A stretch of DNA of 35,922 nucleotides from Candidatus Eiseniibacteriota bacterium (lineage in GTDB: Bacteria; Eisenbacteria; RBG-16-71-46): contig JANXPZ010000141.1 of assembly GCA_025357055.1 (NCBI GenBank), positions 1 to 35,922 of the forward strand, in the 5' to 3' direction. The notes below the pieces were generated by a model. It saw nothing but the letters and a program-made list of their open reading frames with translations, ran no database searches and was not told the origin of the DNA. The position numbers and the translations under genes are program-made. Below are positions 158 through 25,702 of the stretch, piece by piece. Within the stretch, counting starts at the first letter, position 1, and each line of letters begins with the position of its first letter.

Positions 158-784
158 TCAGCGCACGACGAGGGTGCCGGCGACCAGGTCGTGCAGGGTC
201 TGCTTCCTCGCCGTGAAGAGCACCATGATGTAGCCGATGCCGAGGGTGAGGCTGGTGAGCACCCTCGCGAAGTGGCGTCCGCTCGCGCGCGCGAAGGAGA
301 TGCGCCGCCCCTCGACGTCCGTGACCCGCAGTCCGAGTGCCAGCTGCCCGAGCGTCGCCTGCCGCGACGAGCTCTGCATGAGCGCGTAGTAGAACCAGCT
401 GCCCAGCAGCTCGAGGAACGCCACGGTGAGGACCGCGCCCATGAGCGCGGTGATCGCCTCGGCCGGCAGGTCGGTGTCCGTCCAGCCCGCCGAGTCGTTG
501 GCCAGCAGCGGCACGAAGACCATGAAGCCCACGGGCGTGAACACCACGCCGAGCAGGAAGCGGTCGATCAGGTAGCTCCAGAAGCGGCGCCAGAAGCCGC
601 CGTAGACCGGGGCCGCGCGGGTCGCGGACGGTTCGGCCGGCACGGCCGCCCAGGGCCCGGGGTCCGTGGCGGGCGGCGGGACGGCTGCTCCGGGCACCTC
701 GGTGCCGAGGGTGACCGGGGCTCCGCAGGATGAACAGAACGCCGCCTCCCGGGGCAGGTGGGTGCCGCAACGGATGCAGAACAT
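158..784 (-). CDS. Zinc-ribbon RDD family membrane protein
   Basis: The 208-residue product begins with a zinc-ribbon (CIRCGTH, then CSSCGAP; two CxxC pairs within the first 25 residues). A Pro/Ala-rich linker follows, then an RDD domain from about residue 57 starting GGFWRRFWSYLIDRFLL. Two hydrophobic segments follow (about 70-90 and 105-130), then TLGQLALGLRV and a conserved tail with a final hydrophobic stretch (RVLTSLTLGIGYIMVLF). RDD proteins are small polytopic membrane proteins of mostly unknown, possibly transport-related, function. The ATG at 784 is preceded by a GGGGAGG ribosome-binding site about 8 nt upstream. The frame stays open further upstream, but that stretch lies in trpD and lacks RDD similarity. 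It sits 23 nt after trpD and is the last gene of the minus-strand run; I see no clear terminator in positions 1-157. Confidence 0.85.
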   Translation of the reverse strand: MFCIRCGTHLPREAAFCSSCGAPVTLGTEVPGAAVPPPATDPGPWAAVPAEPSATRAAPVYGGFWRRFWSYLIDRFLLGVVFTPVGFMVFVPLLANDSAGWTDTDLPAEAITALMGAVLTVAFLELLGSWFYYALMQSSSRQATLGQLALGLRVTDVEGRRISFARASGRHFARVLTSLTLGIGYIMVLFTARKQTLHDLVAGTLVVR

Positions 785-807: not shown

Positions 808-1815
808 TCAGTCCCGGAACGCCGTGAGATCGTCCAGCTTGCGCGCGGCGCGCCCGCTGTCGATCGCTTCCTGGGCCTGGGCCACGCCCGCGGCGAGGTC
901 CCCCACCACTCCGGCCACGACCAGCGCGCCGCCGGCGTTGAGCACGACGATGTCGCGCGCCGGCCCCTTCTCCCCCTCGAGCACGGCGCGGATCCGCACG
1001 GCGTTGGCGGCCGCGTCCCCGCCCTCGAGACCGCTGCGGTCCGCGTGCGCGAGACCCAGCGGCTCGGGGTCCACCTCGAATTCGCGGATCTCGCCGCGGT
1101 CCAGCTCGGCGACGTGCGAGCGGCCCCGCACCGTCAGCTCGTCCAGCCCGTCGAGGCCGTGCACGACCCAGGCGCGCTCGCTGCCGAGGATCTTCAGGAC
1201 TTCGGCGACGCGGCGCACCAGACGGTCGGAGAAGACGCCGATCAGCTGCCGCCGCGCGCCGGCCGGGTTGGTGAGCGGGCCGAGCAGGTCGAGGATCGTG
1301 CGCACCCCGACCTCGCGGCGAGGTCCCGCTGCGTGGCGCAGCGCCGCGTGGTAATTGGGCGCGAACAGGAAGGTGATGCCCAGCAGGTCGAGCGAGCGCG
1401 CGGCGCTCCCGGGCGTCAGGTCGAGGCGCACGCCCAGGGCCTCGAGCACGTCGGCGCTCCCGGTCCGGCTCGAGACCGCGCGGTTGCCGTGCTTGGCCAC
1501 GGCCACGCCGCACGACGCCACCACGATGGCCGAGGTGGTCGAGATGTTGAACGTGCCGGCGTTGTCGCCGCCGGTGCCGCAGGTGTCGAGCAGCGGCGCG
1601 CGCTTGGTGCGGATGGGGGGCACGCGTTCGCGCATCGCCTCGGCCATGCTGGCGATCTCCCCGGGAGCTTCGCCCTTCATGCGCAGCGCCACGGCGAGGG
1701 CGCCGATCTGCGCCGGCGTGGCGTCGCCGTCGAGGATCTGCTCCATGCTGGCGCGTGCCAGCTCCCGCGGCAGGTCTTCGCGGAGCACCGCGCGTGCGAT
1801 GGCCGTACGGATCAC
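808..1815 (-). CDS. trpD: Anthranilate phosphoribosyltransferase TrpD
   Basis: TrpD transfers phosphoribose from PRPP to anthranilate, the second step of tryptophan synthesis. Visible signatures are the PRPP loop CGTGGDNAGTFNIST, KHGNRAVSS, RTILDLLGPLTNPAG and the metal-binding acidic pair in HGLDGLDELT. All fit an active enzyme. The length of 335 residues is normal. I chose GTG at 1815: it overlaps the trpG stop by 4 nt (GTGA), as at the other junctions of this operon, and has a GGGAGG site 7 nt upstream. An ATG at 1842 in the same frame would add nine unconserved residues. TrpD looks intact although the two upstream genes that should supply its anthranilate appear catalytically degraded. 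Confidence 0.93.
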   Translation of the reverse strand: MIRTAIARAVLREDLPRELARASMEQILDGDATPAQIGALAVALRMKGEAPGEIASMAEAMRERVPPIRTKRAPLLDTCGTGGDNAGTFNISTTSAIVVASCGVAVAKHGNRAVSSRTGSADVLEALGVRLDLTPGSAARSLDLLGITFLFAPNYHAALRHAAGPRREVGVRTILDLLGPLTNPAGARRQLIGVFSDRLVRRVAEVLKILGSERAWVVHGLDGLDELTVRGRSHVAELDRGEIREFEVDPEPLGLAHADRSGLEGGDAAANAVRIRAVLEGEKGPARDIVVLNAGGALVVAGVVGDLAAGVAQAQEAIDSGRAARKLDDLTAFRD

Positions 1816-2402
1816 TGGGGTACCTCCCTTGGTTGGCGGCACAGTGCGAGGAAGTTCTCCACGAGCCTCAGGCCCGGGCAGGTCAGGATGGATTGGGGCG
1901 GGAACTGTACACCCCAGCTCTCGTGATCGCGATGTCGAAGCCCCATGATCTCCCCCGTGGGGGTCCAGGCCGTGACCTCGAGGGTGCGGGGCAGGGACTC
2001 GCGCTCCACGACCCGCGCATGATAGCGCGCCGCGACGAAGGGGTTCTCGAGACTGGCGAAGAGGCCGCGTCCCCGGTGCAGGACCGGGCTGGTCGTGCCG
2101 TGCAGCAGGCGCGGGGCCGGCGCCAGCCTGGCTCCGTAGACCTCGGCCAGGGCCTGGTGCCCGAGACCGATGCCCAGGATGGGCACCCGGCCGGCGCAGC
2201 GGCGGATCGCCTCGAGCGTGATGCCGGCAGCCGCCGGCGCCCCCGGCCCGGACGACACCACCAGGCCCTCGAGCGGCCGCGCGGCCAGCGCTTCGGCCGT
2301 GATGGCGCCGCTGCCGTGGACTTCGAAGCGCGCGCCGAGTGTGGCGAGGGCCTGCAGCAGGCTGCCGGTGAAGGCGTCCCGGTTCTCGATGACCCCGATC
2401 AT
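1812..2402 (-). CDS. trpG: TrpG-like glutamine amidotransferase lacking its catalytic triad
   Basis: The 196 residues align end to end with the class I glutamine amidotransferase subunit of anthranilate synthase. Recognisable blocks are SSGPGAP (50-56), ILGIGLGHQALAE (75-87), RYH (126-128), EVTAWTPTGEIMGLRH (142-157) and GVQFPPQSILT (164-174). The nucleophile Cys of GxCLGHQ is Gly79 (codon ggt). The His and Glu of the family motif FHPES are Pro168 and Gln170. All three catalytic-triad residues are therefore replaced while the surrounding motifs are kept. By family knowledge it should not hydrolyse glutamine. It may be a structural partner or a pseudoenzyme, or the gene may be decaying. The ATG overlaps the trpE stop by 4 nt (ATGA), so coupled translation is expected. 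The fold and family are certain; the function is not. Confidence 0.85.
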   Translation of the reverse strand: MIGVIENRDAFTGSLLQALATLGARFEVHGSGAITAEALAARPLEGLVVSSGPGAPAAAGITLEAIRRCAGRVPILGIGLGHQALAEVYGARLAPAPRLLHGTTSPVLHRGRGLFASLENPFVAARYHARVVERESLPRTLEVTAWTPTGEIMGLRHRDHESWGVQFPPQSILTCPGLRLVENFLALCRQPREVPQ

Positions 2403-3886
2403 CGCCCGACCCCTGCGGCGCGTTGCAGCGCGAGGCCGGGCCCGCGGGCCTGGTCCTGGGTGTCGCGCCACGCGGCCTCGGGGCCGGTGTCCGCGGTGAT
2501 CACGGTCGCCGCGCTCCAGTCGGCTCGCCCGTCGGCGAGGAGCAGCGTGTGCGCGGAGCTGCACAGCTCCAGGCCGCCTCGAAGATCGAAGTATCCCACC
2601 GCCCCGGTGTGGAGCCCGCGCGGCGCCGCCTCCAGTTCCTCGATGAGCTCCAGGGCCCGGCCCCGGGGCGCGCCGCAGTCGCCGGCTGCGGGAAAGCAGG
2701 CCCCCAGCAAGTCCAGTGGCCCGGCGTCGGGCCGCGGCCGGCCGCGTACCGTGGACGAAAGGTGCATGGCCTGCGAGTGGCGTTCCACCTCCATCCACTC
2801 GCTGACGTCGACCGTGCCAGGCTCGGCGACACCGCCCACGTCGCTGCGGGCCAGGTCCACGCCCAGGGCGTGGGCGGCGCGCTCCCGCTCCCCGCTGCGC
2901 AGTTCCTCCTCCAGCCTGCGCTCCTCCTCCGCGGTGCGGCCGCGCGGCCGCGCCCCCGCGAGGACGTGCGCCTCGATCACGTCCTCCGTCCGGCGCACCA
3001 GCGAGCCGGGCGCGGAGCCCGCGAGGCAGAAGTCGCCGATCCGGAAGAAGTGGCCGTAGGGCGATGGGGTGGTCAGGCGCAGCGCGCGGTAGGCCTCGAA
3101 GGCGGGGGCCCGGAGCGCCACGCTCAGGCGCCGCGCGAGCGTCAGCTGCAGCACCTCCCCCGCGCGGACGTGCGCCCGGGCGCGCTCGACGACGGTTCCG
3201 AACTGCTCGGGCGTGAACGACGAGGCGGGTTGCCCGAGCGGCGCCCCGGACTTCGGCGCGGGCCAGGCCAGCGGGGCCTCGAGCCGCGCGATCTCCGCAT
3301 CGAGGCGTTCGACCGCCGCCACCCACGACGCGTCGGGATCGCTCCCGCCGCGCGCGTGCGTCACGACCTTGACGGTGTGCGCGACGTGGTCGAAGACGGT
3401 GACGACCCCGGTGAAGAGGAACACGGCGTCGGGCGGTCCCGCCCCGGCCGCTGCCTGCGCGGGCCGCCCCTCGAACCAGCGCGCTGCGTCGCAGCCGAGG
3501 TAGCCGACCGCGCCGCCGCAGAACCACGGCAGCCCCGGCAGGGCGATGGCCTGGCGCGCCGCGAGCAGGGCCCGCAGTTCATCGCGTGGCGGGCCGGCGC
3601 AGGGGCGGGTGACACCGTCCTCGAGGATCTCGCAGTGCTCCCCGCGGGCCACGAAGACCAGCGTGGGTCTGCTCCCCACCATGGAGTAGCGTCCCCACTT
3701 CTCGCCGCCCTCGAGACTCTCGAGCAGGAAGGCGTGGACACCGTCGTCGAGCTTGCGGAAGGCGGAGACGGGCGTCTCGTGGTCGCCGGGCAGGTCGCAG
3801 GTGACCGGGACGTGTCTGCCGCCGGCCGCGAGCGCGCGGAACTCGTCGCGGCCAGGGGTGACGGGACGCTCGCGCCCGCTCGTCAC
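2399..3886 (-). CDS. trpE: Anthranilate synthase component I-like protein with a degenerate active site
   Basis: The 495 residues have the TrpE layout: an N-terminal domain with LLESLEGGEKWGRYSMVG (54-71), then a chorismate-binding domain from about 225 (GEVLQLTLARR, TPSPYGHFFRIGDFCLAGS, GAVGYFDL). Many normally invariant positions differ. SPE is SAPG (291-294), AGTRPRG is AGARPRG (310-316), the Mg-ligand Glu of the AEH motif is Ala338, RND is RSD (347-349), GTxSGAPK is AGDCGAPR (401-408), the substrate-binding Arg of AIRT is His446, the GAG loop is ATV (460-462) and the second Mg-ligand Glu is Asp475. His375 of MHL is kept. The frame is intact and G/C-rich at third positions. The GTG start overlaps the recN stop by 4 nt. 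TrpE fold is clear, but conversion of chorismate is doubtful. Confidence 0.82.
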   Translation of the reverse strand: MTSGRERPVTPGRDEFRALAAGGRHVPVTCDLPGDHETPVSAFRKLDDGVHAFLLESLEGGEKWGRYSMVGSRPTLVFVARGEHCEILEDGVTRPCAGPPRDELRALLAARQAIALPGLPWFCGGAVGYLGCDAARWFEGRPAQAAAGAGPPDAVFLFTGVVTVFDHVAHTVKVVTHARGGSDPDASWVAAVERLDAEIARLEAPLAWPAPKSGAPLGQPASSFTPEQFGTVVERARAHVRAGEVLQLTLARRLSVALRAPAFEAYRALRLTTPSPYGHFFRIGDFCLAGSAPGSLVRRTEDVIEAHVLAGARPRGRTAEEERRLEEELRSGERERAAHALGVDLARSDVGGVAEPGTVDVSEWMEVERHSQAMHLSSTVRGRPRPDAGPLDLLGACFPAAGDCGAPRGRALELIEELEAAPRGLHTGAVGYFDLRGGLELCSSAHTLLLADGRADWSAATVITADTGPEAAWRDTQDQARGPGLALQRAAGVGR

Positions 3887-5565
3887 GCGCCCGCCCCCAG
3901 GAGTTCGCGCGCCTGCCGTCGCGTGGTGTCGGTGACCCGGTCGCCGGCCAGCATCCGGGCCAGTTCCTCGACGCGCTCGCTGCCTTCGACCGCCACGATG
4001 CGCGCCACCGTCCGGCCCGCCGCCACGGACTTGTCCACCCGCAGGTGATGCGTGGCGAGGGCGGCGATCATCGGCAGGTGGGTCACGCAGACGATCTGGC
4101 GGTGCCGGGCCAGGAGCTTCAGGCGCTCCCCGACCGCCTGGGCGACCGCGCCACCGATCCCGGAGTCCACCTCATCGAACAGCAGAAGGTCAACGGGGTC
4201 TTGGGCTTCCAGCGCTACCTTCAGAGCCAGCATCACCCGGGAAAGCTCCCCGCCCGAGACCACCTTCTGCAGCGGCCGGGCCGGCTCGCCGGGATTCGCG
4301 CTGAACCTGATCTCGACCTGGTCGAGCCCGCTGGCACCCAGGGCGGGCTGCGGGCCATCGTCCGGCTCGACCAGGAAGCCGAGGCTCGCGTGCTGCATCC
4401 CGAGCGGCTTCATCTCCTTCGAGAGCCTTGTCCCCCACTCCTGCGCCGCCGCCTGGCGTCTGCGCGAGAGGGTGCGCGCCGCGGCGACGCAGGTCGCATG
4501 CGTCTCCTGCGCCGCGTCGCGGGCCTGCGTCAGCGTGGCCGCGGCGTCCTCCCCCGTGGCGAGCTCGTGGCGGAGCTCCTCGCGCCAGGCGATCAGCCCG
4601 GGCACGTCGCGGCGGTGCTTGCGCACGAGCCGGGCGATCGCCTCCCGGCGGGACTCGACCTGCTCCAGCGCGGCGGGGTCGGCCTCGAGGCGTGAGACGT
4701 ATTCGCCGAGCGCGCGTGCGACCTCGGCCGTGGCGATGCGCGCCTCGTCGAGCGCGGGCAGGGACTCCGCCAGGCTCGGATCGAGCGTGGCCGCCTGTTC
4801 GAGCGCGCGCCCGGCCCGGGCGAGGGCGTCCACCGCCGGCGCTTCGCCGTCCGAGAGGCGCCCGAGCGCCTGTTCCACCAGTTCGCGCAGGCGGTCGGCA
4901 TGAGCCAGGCGCGCGGCCTCGATCCGCAGTTCGTCCTCCTCGCCGTCGCGCAGGCGCGCCTCGTCCAGTTCGAGCGCCGCCTGCTCCATCCACTCGCGCC
5001 GCTCGGCGTGGGTGGCGAGCGAGCCCTCGAGGGCCTCGAGCCGGGCGGCGGCGGCGCGCCAGGCGGCCAGCGACTGGGCATAGCGGGCGCTCTCGCCCTC
5101 GACCGCCGCGAGCCGATCGAGGGTCTCGAGGCCCGCGCCGGGGCGCAGCAGGCTCTGGTGCTCGTGCTGGCCGTGGAGATCCGCGAGCGCCTCGCAGAGT
5201 TCCCGCAGCGCGCCGCGCGTCACCGCCGACTGGTTCACCAGGGCGCGGCTCTTGCCGCCGGCCTGGACCTCGCGCCGCAGGATGAGGCTCTCGCCGTCGT
5301 ACTCGACGCCCCACGCGGCGAGCAGCGGTCCGACCCGCAACGCGGCGCGCGCCGAGGGGCGGAACTCGCCCTCGACCACGGCGGCCTTCGCGCCCTCGCG
5401 CACGACGCCCGGGTCGGCGCGGCCGCCGGTGAGCAGGTCCACGGCCTGCACCAGCAGCGACTTGCCCGCGCCGGTCTCGCCGGTCACCACGTTGAGCCCG
5501 GCGCCGAACTCGACTTCGGCCCGCTCCACCAGCACGAGGTCGCGGATGAGCAGGCGTTCGAGCAC
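3883..5565 (-). CDS. recN: DNA repair protein RecN
   Basis: RecN is an SMC-like ATPase that acts early in double-strand break repair. The 560-residue protein has the Walker A motif GETGAGKS near residue 30, a long Glu/Ala/Arg-rich coiled-coil middle (about 155-370), the ABC signature VVSGGELSRVMLALK and Walker B LLLFDEVDSGIGG, followed by the H-loop region IVCVTHLPMIAA. The length matches the family. GTG at 5565 gives the conserved start LERLLIRDLVLVERAEVEF. It lies two bases after the nadK stop, so the genes are probably co-translated. The nadK-recN order is common in bacteria. Confidence 0.96.
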   Translation of the reverse strand: MLERLLIRDLVLVERAEVEFGAGLNVVTGETGAGKSLLVQAVDLLTGGRADPGVVREGAKAAVVEGEFRPSARAALRVGPLLAAWGVEYDGESLILRREVQAGGKSRALVNQSAVTRGALRELCEALADLHGQHEHQSLLRPGAGLETLDRLAAVEGESARYAQSLAAWRAAAARLEALEGSLATHAERREWMEQAALELDEARLRDGEEDELRIEAARLAHADRLRELVEQALGRLSDGEAPAVDALARAGRALEQAATLDPSLAESLPALDEARIATAEVARALGEYVSRLEADPAALEQVESRREAIARLVRKHRRDVPGLIAWREELRHELATGEDAAATLTQARDAAQETHATCVAAARTLSRRRQAAAQEWGTRLSKEMKPLGMQHASLGFLVEPDDGPQPALGASGLDQVEIRFSANPGEPARPLQKVVSGGELSRVMLALKVALEAQDPVDLLLFDEVDSGIGGAVAQAVGERLKLLARHRQIVCVTHLPMIAALATHHLRVDKSVAAGRTVARIVAVEGSERVEELARMLAGDRVTDTTRRQARELLGAGA

Positions 5566-23508: not shown

Positions 23509-24522
23509 CTAGACGCTGCGCCCGACCACCCCGGCGATGGCGCGGATCTGGCGGACCAGCTCGTCGAACTGCGCCGGGTAGAGCGACTGCGGCCCGTCCG
23601 AGAGGGCGTGATCCGGGTCGTGGTGGACCTCGACCAGGAGTCCGTCCGCCCCGGCCGCGATGGCGGCGCGCGCCATGGGCGCGACCTTGTCGCGCATGCC
23701 GGTGCCGTGCGAGGGATCCACGATGACGGGCAGGTGCGAGAGCTCCTTGACCACGGGGATGGCGTTCAGGTCGAGCGTGTTGCGGGTGTAGCTCTCGAAC
23801 GTGCGGATGCCGCGTTCGCACAGGATGACCTGGTGGTTGCCGTTCGAGAGCACGTGTTCGGCGCTCATCAGCCATTCCTCGATGGTCGCGGCCATGCCGC
23901 GCTTGAGCAGCACGGGCTTCCGGGCACGCGCGACCTCGCGCAGCAGCGAGAGGTTCTGCATGTTGCGCGCGCCGACCTGCACGATGTCGGCGTAGCGGGC
24001 GACCTGCTCGACCTGCTTGGGGTCCATCACCTCGCTGACCACGGCCAGGCCGTGCGCGTCCGCCGCGCGCCGGAGGATCTTCAAGCCCTCCTCCCCCAGT
24101 CCCTGGAAGGAGTAGGGCGAGGTGCGCGGCTTGTAGGCTCCGCCGCGCATCACCGTGGCGCCCGCCCGGGCGACCGCGGCGGCGATGGTGAAGGCCTGCT
24201 CCTCCCCCTCGATCGAGCAGGGGCCCGCCATCAGGACGAGCTGCTCGCTGCCGATGGTGCAGCGCCCGACCGAGAACACCGTGTCGGCCGGATGGAACGC
24301 GCGCGAGGCGAGCTCGAAGGGCACCGGGACGGACTCGACGCTCTCCGCCGCGGGCCAGCGCCGAACCTCGTTCCAGTCCAGCGCCGTGTCGTCGCCCACC
24401 GCGGCCAGCCGCACCTGGCCGTCGTGGTCGGTGCGGTGGACCGCGAGCCCTGCCAGGCGCAGGCGCTCCGTGACCTCGCTCACGGCCGTCTCGCTCGTGT
24501 CCCGGCGGACCCGGATCAGCAT
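23509..24522 (-). CDS. aroF: 3-deoxy-7-phosphoheptulonate (DAHP) synthase, type I-beta
   Basis: DAHP synthase condenses phosphoenolpyruvate and erythrose 4-phosphate, the first step of the shikimate pathway. The 337 residues comprise an N-terminal ferredoxin-like regulatory domain ([20 protein letters not shown]) and a barrel with [53 protein letters not shown] and IVDPSHGTG. This matches the Thermotoga/Bacillus-like I-beta class in size and layout. In that class the ferredoxin-like domain mediates aromatic amino-acid feedback; this is inferred for this protein. The ATG overlaps the aroC stop by one base (TGATG). An upstream ATG at 24561 adds an unconserved Ala/Arg-rich stretch. Confidence 0.95.
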
Positions 24523-25583
24523 CAGCGGTCGCGCCCGCGCAGCGCGCGCTGGCGCAGCCACGCCTCCATCAGCGCCAGGGCGAGCATCGCCTCGGCCACC
24601 GGTACGACACGCGGGCAGATGCAGGGGTCGTGGCGGCCCACGATGGCGAGCGGCGTGGACTCACCCTGCGTGGTCGTGGCCGTCTGCTCCTGGCCGATCG
24701 AACTGGCCGGCCGGATCGCCACGCGCACCACGACGTCGGCGCCGTTCGAGATGCCGCCCGAGATGCCGCCGGCGTGGTTCGAGAGGTAGCGGCCGCCCTC
24801 GAGCACGTCGTTGGTCTCCGAGCCCCGGCGCGCGGCGAGGGCGAAGCCGTCGCCGATCTCCACGCCCCGGGTCGAGGGGATCGAGAGCATGTCGGCGCCG
24901 AGCAGGGCGTCGAGCCGGTCCATGGTGGGGTCGCCCCAGCCGGCGGGCACGCCGCGGGCGACGACTTCGACCACGCCGCCGACGGAGTCCTTCGCGTCGC
25001 GCGCGATCACGATGAGCTGGGCCATCTCGATCGCGGCGGCGGGGTCGGGGCAGCGCACCGGGTTGCGCTCGGCCTCGTCCCAGTCGCGCCAGGCCGCCAC
25101 CACGTCGCCGACCTGGACGGTGCCCCCGACGATGCTCACCCCGATGGTGGCCAGCGCGAGCTTCGCCAGCGCCCCGGCGGCCACGCGGCCCACGGTCTCG
25201 CGGCCCGACGAGCGTCCGCCACCGCGGTGGTCGCGCACGCCGTACTTCTGCTGCCAGGCGTAGTCCGCGTGTCCCGGGCGGAACACCTCGCGCAGGGCCT
25301 CGTAGTCCTGCGGGCGGGTGTCCTGGTTGCGCACCATCATCGCGATGGGAGTGCCGAGCGTGACTCCCTCGAAGAGCCCCGAGAGGACCTCGACGCGGTC
25401 GGCCTCGTCGCGCTGCGTGGTGAGTGCGCTCTGTCCCGGCCGGCGGCGGTCCAGCTCGCGCTGCAGGTCCGCGACGTCCACGCGGATGGCGGGTGGCATG
25501 CCGTCCACCACCACGCCCACGGCCGGACCGTGGGACTCGCCGAAGGTGACGACGCGGAAGAGCGTGCCGAACGAGGAGGACAT
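24522..25583 (-). CDS. aroC: Chorismate synthase
   Basis: Chorismate synthase makes chorismate from EPSP using reduced FMN, the last shikimate step. The 353 residues contain the three signatures: FGESHGPAVGVVVDGMPP near the start, FRPGHADYAWQQKYGVRDHR with GGGRSSGRETVGRVAAGALA in the middle, and NHAGGISGGISNGADVVVRV plus GRHDPCICPRVVPVAEAM at the end. The ATG at 25583 has AGG-rich sequence upstream and follows a possible 24-codon leader frame by two bases. It pairs with DAHP synthase, so the first and last shikimate enzymes are co-transcribed. Confidence 0.97.
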   Translation of the reverse strand: MSSSFGTLFRVVTFGESHGPAVGVVVDGMPPAIRVDVADLQRELDRRRPGQSALTTQRDEADRVEVLSGLFEGVTLGTPIAMMVRNQDTRPQDYEALREVFRPGHADYAWQQKYGVRDHRGGGRSSGRETVGRVAAGALAKLALATIGVSIVGGTVQVGDVVAAWRDWDEAERNPVRCPDPAAAIEMAQLIVIARDAKDSVGGVVEVVARGVPAGWGDPTMDRLDALLGADMLSIPSTRGVEIGDGFALAARRGSETNDVLEGGRYLSNHAGGISGGISNGADVVVRVAIRPASSIGQEQTATTTQGESTPLAIVGRHDPCICPRVVPVAEAMLALALMEAWLRQRALRGRDR

Positions 25584-25585
25584 GC

Positions 25586-25660
25586 TCAGCGCCCGCCCGC
25601 GCGGCGTGTTTCGCGGAGCCGGAGCAGCAGTTCGACAACGGCAGTCGTGGGCTTGCGCAT
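25586..25660 (-). CDS. Possible 24-residue upstream peptide coupled to aroC
   Basis: An ATG at 25660, preceded by a GGGAGA-like site, opens a frame of 24 residues (MRKPTTAVVELLLRLRETRR, then AGGR). It ends two bases before the aroC ATG (TGAGCATG). The close spacing suggests translational coupling. It contains no Phe, Tyr or Trp, so it does not look like a classical aromatic attenuation peptide. It may be a chance frame. Confidence 0.3.
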   Translation of the reverse strand: MRKPTTAVVELLLRLRETRRAGGR

Positions 25661-25702
25661 GGGGCTCTCCCGGGAAGGTCGGCGCGGCCGGTCAGCGACC
25701 GG

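Follow-up and report, generated by a model that had tools for sequence, protein, structure and literature searches.

A putatively non-catalytic TrpE-TrpG pair beside an intact trpD in an Eisenbacteria genome with a second trp operon

The native anthranilate synthase of a Candidatus Eiseniibacteriota bacterium has probably been displaced by a second tryptophan operon and turned into a non-catalytic protein pair, termed here TrpE2 and TrpG2, that remains coupled to an intact TrpD. Both subunits are encoded in the window, i.e., the entire 35,922-nucleotide stretch that was analyzed (contig JANXPZ010000141.1), which comes from one draft metagenome assembly. The genome clusters with assemblies from metagenomes that carry the name Candidatus Eisenbacteria.

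Results

We compared the locus with 20 genomes of the family, representing species outside the genus. The native gene order in the family is recN-trpE-trpG-trpD-trpC-trpF-trpB, with a small zinc-ribbon/RDD-like gene separating trpD from trpC inside the operon in most members. On the minus strand of the window lie recN (3883..5565), the conserved upstream neighbor that served as evolutionary-rate control, trpE2 (2399..3886) for the anthranilate synthase large subunit, trpG2 (1812..2402) for a 196-aa class I glutamine amidotransferase subunit, trpD (808..1815) for anthranilate phosphoribosyltransferase, and the small zinc-ribbon gene (158..784). The unbroken trpG frame overlapping trpE and trpD that the first-pass annotation had described was confirmed, with 4-nt overlaps at both junctions: ATGA, where the trpE2 stop lies on the trpG2 start, and GTGA, where the trpG2 stop lies on the trpD start. 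In phylogenetic trees, TrpE and TrpD of the window fell inside the native family clade, and judged from sequence the window genes represent the native Eisenbacteria trpEGD locus. Unlike in the relatives, no trpC start was present in the 157 bases between the small zinc-ribbon gene and the contig end; this and the location of the only trpC and trpA found in the genome on two other contigs (see below) suggest that the native trpCFB genes are gone, although the window contig ends at this point.

The Cys-His-Glu triad of functional class I glutamine amidotransferases is absent from TrpG2. Its replacement by Gly79, Pro168, and Gln170, noted at first reading, was verified at the codon level (positions 2168-2166, 1901-1899, and 1895-1893, respectively). 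The triad of E. coli PabA is C79/H168/E170 (PMC7617670), and TrpG2 aligns with this protein without gaps, so that the residue numbers coincide. All 15 full-length trpG orthologues of the family, each at the recN-trpE-trpG-trpD locus, encode C/H/E, as does a 16th whose gene is split across two contigs. None of these orthologues has the Gly/Pro/Gln substitutions, and among the family genomes compared the triad loss is confined to this one. In the relative G016, the trpG gene (L046, G016:C80:104145-104717) has an intact triad and one in-frame TAG, with an open reading frame of ~135 codons before it. In this enzyme family glutamine hydrolysis depends on the Cys-His-Glu triad, and the proposed loss of glutaminase activity in TrpG2 is well supported by the sequence.

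TrpG2 otherwise retains the features of the TrpG/PabA family, scoring 133 bits against PF00117 and 163 bits against the NCBI trpG_papA profile TIGR00566 (cut-off, 121). Its predicted model matches E. coli PabA with a TM-score of 0.80. Because residues 101-126 are poorly predicted and intact orthologues were part of the input alignment, the case for a retained fold rests mainly on the sequence profiles. In the TrpE2-TrpG2 pair, the Pfam domains GATase, Anth_synt_I_N, and Chorismate_bind all score above their cut-offs. Against TIGR00564, TrpE2 reaches 353 bits (cut-off, 518), and the intact TrpE encoded on contig C38 of this genome is also below the cut-off at 465 bits. The predicted structure of TrpE2 was poor (pLDDT 55) and was set aside.

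For TrpE we compiled a list of 15 active-site residues, one of them an added conserved His. The remaining residues were mapped by motif from the template, the chorismate- and magnesium-binding residues of MbtI (PMC8008425). In TrpE2, 12 of the 15 are changed (V249T, E294G, I309L, E338A, T402G, Y426H, R446H, G460A, G462V, E472A, E475D, and K479Q) and only Q247, E335, and H375 are kept, compared with 69 changes at the 244 other invariant positions (p = 9e-5). TrpE2 thus lacks most of the chorismate/Mg2+ site of a functional TrpE, while its N-terminal domain is better kept. Chorismate chemistry requires the Mg2+ glutamates and the substrate contacts, and TrpE2, too, would by sequence be catalytically dead.

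The changes extend well beyond the active sites. Contrary to the first-pass view that exactly the three catalytic residues had been lost, 26 of the 101 TrpG positions invariant among the relatives are replaced, as are 81 of 259 in TrpE. The corresponding counts are 5 of 135 for TrpD and 3 of 148 for RecN, and relatives handled identically lose 0-7% of invariant positions. The triad is hit somewhat more often than expected by chance (3/3 versus 23/98 other invariant positions, Fisher p = 0.016), and a wider list of seven TrpG active-site residues showed no enrichment (3/7 versus 23/94, p = 0.25). TrpE of this genome is 52-58% identical to its family relatives, which are 73-89% identical among themselves, whereas TrpD and RecN have ordinary identities. 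On a fixed tree, the ratio of this genome's branch length to that of its sister is 15 for TrpE and 5 for TrpG, but 1.5 for TrpD and 1.2 for RecN. The acceleration is therefore limited to TrpE and TrpG. TrpD keeps its motifs and scores 403 bits against a trpD cut-off of 199.

Selection was assessed with our own implementation of a codon model, in which branch lengths were common to four genes and each gene had one omega. Lengths were pooled because saturation left the synonymous length of the branch undefined in per-gene models, which were dropped; synonymous sites are near saturation in the pooled model as well. Omega on this branch was 0.25 for TrpE and 0.19 for TrpG versus 0.05 elsewhere, a roughly five-fold and four-fold rise that leaves both well below 1, on a branch that includes time before the catalytic loss and is represented by one genome. 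For TrpD, omega was unchanged (0.068 on this branch versus 0.065 elsewhere). Equal omegas were rejected (2dlnL = 194), and setting omega to 1 for the pair cost ~111 log units relative to free omegas. The lost catalytic residues, the low omegas, the open frames, and the mild, regional replacements described below may fit the pseudoenzyme pattern proposed for TrpG2, a reading qualified by the time span of the branch and by the single genome that carries the loss.

No stops or internal indels were found in trpE2 or trpG2 in comparison with the relatives, and neither frameshifts nor code-random replacements, the other marks of a pseudogene, were seen. Of two signs that the first-pass annotation had held to count jointly against its reading, a normal triad in all relatives was found and stops in this copy were not. 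Few stops are expected at this GC content, so that their absence is weak evidence, and we put weight on the absence of indels, the type of replacement, and its regional pattern. Replacements at invariant TrpE2 sites have a mean BLOSUM62 score of -0.07 compared to about -0.8 for code-random change, and none of 4000 neutral simulations was as mild; one new proline appeared at these sites versus 7-10 under neutrality. TrpG2 replacements also lean milder than neutral (p about 0.02). Losses at invariant TrpE2 positions are few in residues 35-230 (9/82) and many in the catalytic half (65/162; p = 1.6e-6), and residues 132-196 of TrpG2 have lost only two such positions of 30, both from the triad, versus 24 of 71 earlier in the protein (p = 0.005); the regional cuts were picked after the losses had been viewed, which makes both p values optimistic. 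Third-codon-position identity does not mirror this regional pattern, suggesting that the constraint acts on the protein. The view that the changes are not random decay therefore finds support on grounds other than those first given, namely the lack of stops and indels, the mild replacements, the regional differences, and the enrichment in the TrpE active site. On the other side, conserved and variable sites of TrpE2 change about equally often, as under relaxed selection, and both genes show an upward drift of GC content at second codon positions.

A search of the genome for an intact second trpG or pabA, suggested at first reading, recovered an intact trpG and a pabA-like gene. Contig C38 carries a second trpE-trpG-trpD-trpC-trpF-trpB set, in which TrpG keeps C/H/E and TrpE keeps its motifs; contig C37 carries trpB-trpA followed by a DAHP synthase gene; and contig C61 holds a linked pabB-like/pabA-like pair (L009, 366-1879). 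The only trpC and trpA found in this genome are on C38/C37, and the two contigs have a common 141-base end inside trpB. Bases 1-700 of C38 (L008) begin with an inverted piece of trpB that has the 141-base end in common with C37 (L167). This looks like a fork in the assembly, or a hairpin artefact, within trpB and gives this end of C38 a chimeric appearance. Two DAHP synthase genes were observed, one in the window (23512-24660) beside the chorismate synthase gene aroC (24525-25691) and the other (L066, 383-1432) directly behind trpA of C37, by which the second operon brings its own pathway-entry enzyme.

In composition, C38/C37 match this genome to the degree seen for its other contigs and more closely than any of 35 high-GC foreign loci match it, making contamination unlikely; a POT transporter gene on C38 was uninformative as a clue to contig membership. 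The C38 copies of TrpE and TrpD fall outside the native clade, and the C38 operon is accordingly either foreign or anciently divergent, its long branches leaving its place in the tree unsure. A search for its donor found none. No second TrpG of the C38 kind was seen in any other genome of the order. Most family genomes have a second chorismate-binding protein (~43% identical to the C38 TrpE) that was not seen in this genome. The relatives seem to depend on one TrpG together with this different, TrpE-like protein, in contrast to the pabB-like/pabA-like pair found here.

Discussion

With a second trpEGDCFBA set and a separate pabAB pair, the native TrpE-TrpG is redundant, and the order of events that we infer begins here: the native pair would have become needless both for making anthranilate and for feeding PabB. 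Both subunits would then have lost catalysis, presumably completely, TrpG2 no longer hydrolyzing glutamine and TrpE2 no longer holding Mg2+ and chorismate. The pair would persist as two full-length proteins with overlapping frames, beside an intact and constrained TrpD, through a non-catalytic role, most likely as a partner or scaffold of TrpD. In our judgment, the probable explanation is that the native anthranilate synthase was displaced and became such a pair. A more specific version, in which TrpE2-TrpG2 would be a regulatory or scaffold partner of TrpD, such as a tryptophan-sensing brake based on the N-terminal domain of TrpE, its better-kept part, as HisZ is for HisG, is speculative and rather unlikely to be correct as it stands.

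The pair may instead be a fading relic, in which neither trpE2 nor trpG2 has a function at the protein level, stops and frameshifts are purged because they would silence trpD, and missense changes drift. We consider this possible, if somewhat doubtful. Coupling to a trpD under normal constraint through the ATGA and GTGA junctions could alone keep the frames open where few stops are expected anyway, and the similar rates at invariant and variable TrpE2 positions and the upward second-position GC drift are what such a relic would show. Coupling alone does not predict, however, that TrpE2 replacements should be much milder than neutral or that losses should differ so strongly between domains, down to the mere two triad residues lost past residue 132 of TrpG2. 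Accelerated, non-neutral change would also suit neofunctionalization, with the pair gaining a different chorismate- or glutamine-using reaction; we regard this as very improbable, since the residues lost are those common to the whole family of chorismate enzymes (Mg2+ glutamates, Arg, Lys, and the GAG loop) together with the glutaminase triad. Least credible is an artefact, either an error of sequencing or assembly in trpEG or contamination by C38/C37 that would remove the redundancy. The draft metagenome assembly and the chimeric-looking end of C38 invite the suspicion, but 107 invariant residues are replaced while the frames stay unbroken and the flanking recN and trpD on the same contig are normal, and C38/C37 match the genome in composition and hold the only trpC and trpA found.

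The proposed non-catalytic pair is orthologous, by locus and tree, to TrpE-TrpG and to glutaminases of the TrpG/PabA type and has their Pfam domains, and differs from them in the missing glutaminase triad and the largely replaced synthase active site. The glutaminase-like domain of carbamoyl phosphate synthetase I has lost its catalytic Cys and been retained. The TrpG2 model matches its fold, among others, and TrpG2 may likewise keep a class I glutaminase fold without the nucleophile; the synthase of that enzyme still works with free ammonia, whereas the partner TrpE2 has lost its active site too. HisZ is a catalytically dead synthetase paralogue that regulates the phosphoribosyltransferase HisG. 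TrpE2-TrpG2 may be comparable, as an inactive enzyme encoded together with a working phosphoribosyltransferase of an amino-acid pathway. This parallel offers a lead, although the folds are unrelated and TrpE2-TrpG2 is tied to TrpD by adjacency and by the intact, constrained trpD. Insect symbionts, Buchnera among them, have trpEG pseudogenes that are similar in that redundant anthranilate synthase genes lose function, but those carry frame breaks and trpE2/trpG2 do not. Searches of the open literature turned up no account of a comparable dead TrpE-TrpG pair.

Automatic annotation would label TrpG2 a working amidotransferase, since it passes the curated NCBI cut-off for TrpG/PabA without any residue of the triad, and the gene is in this respect an annotation trap. 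The locus offers a natural before-and-after view of how both partners of an enzyme complex lose catalysis. The second operon, as the likely cause, is present in this genome, intact orthologues at the same locus allow comparison, and a constrained neighboring gene serves as an internal control. Whether a dead complex is kept by a new job or by mere coupling to the next gene thereby becomes testable.
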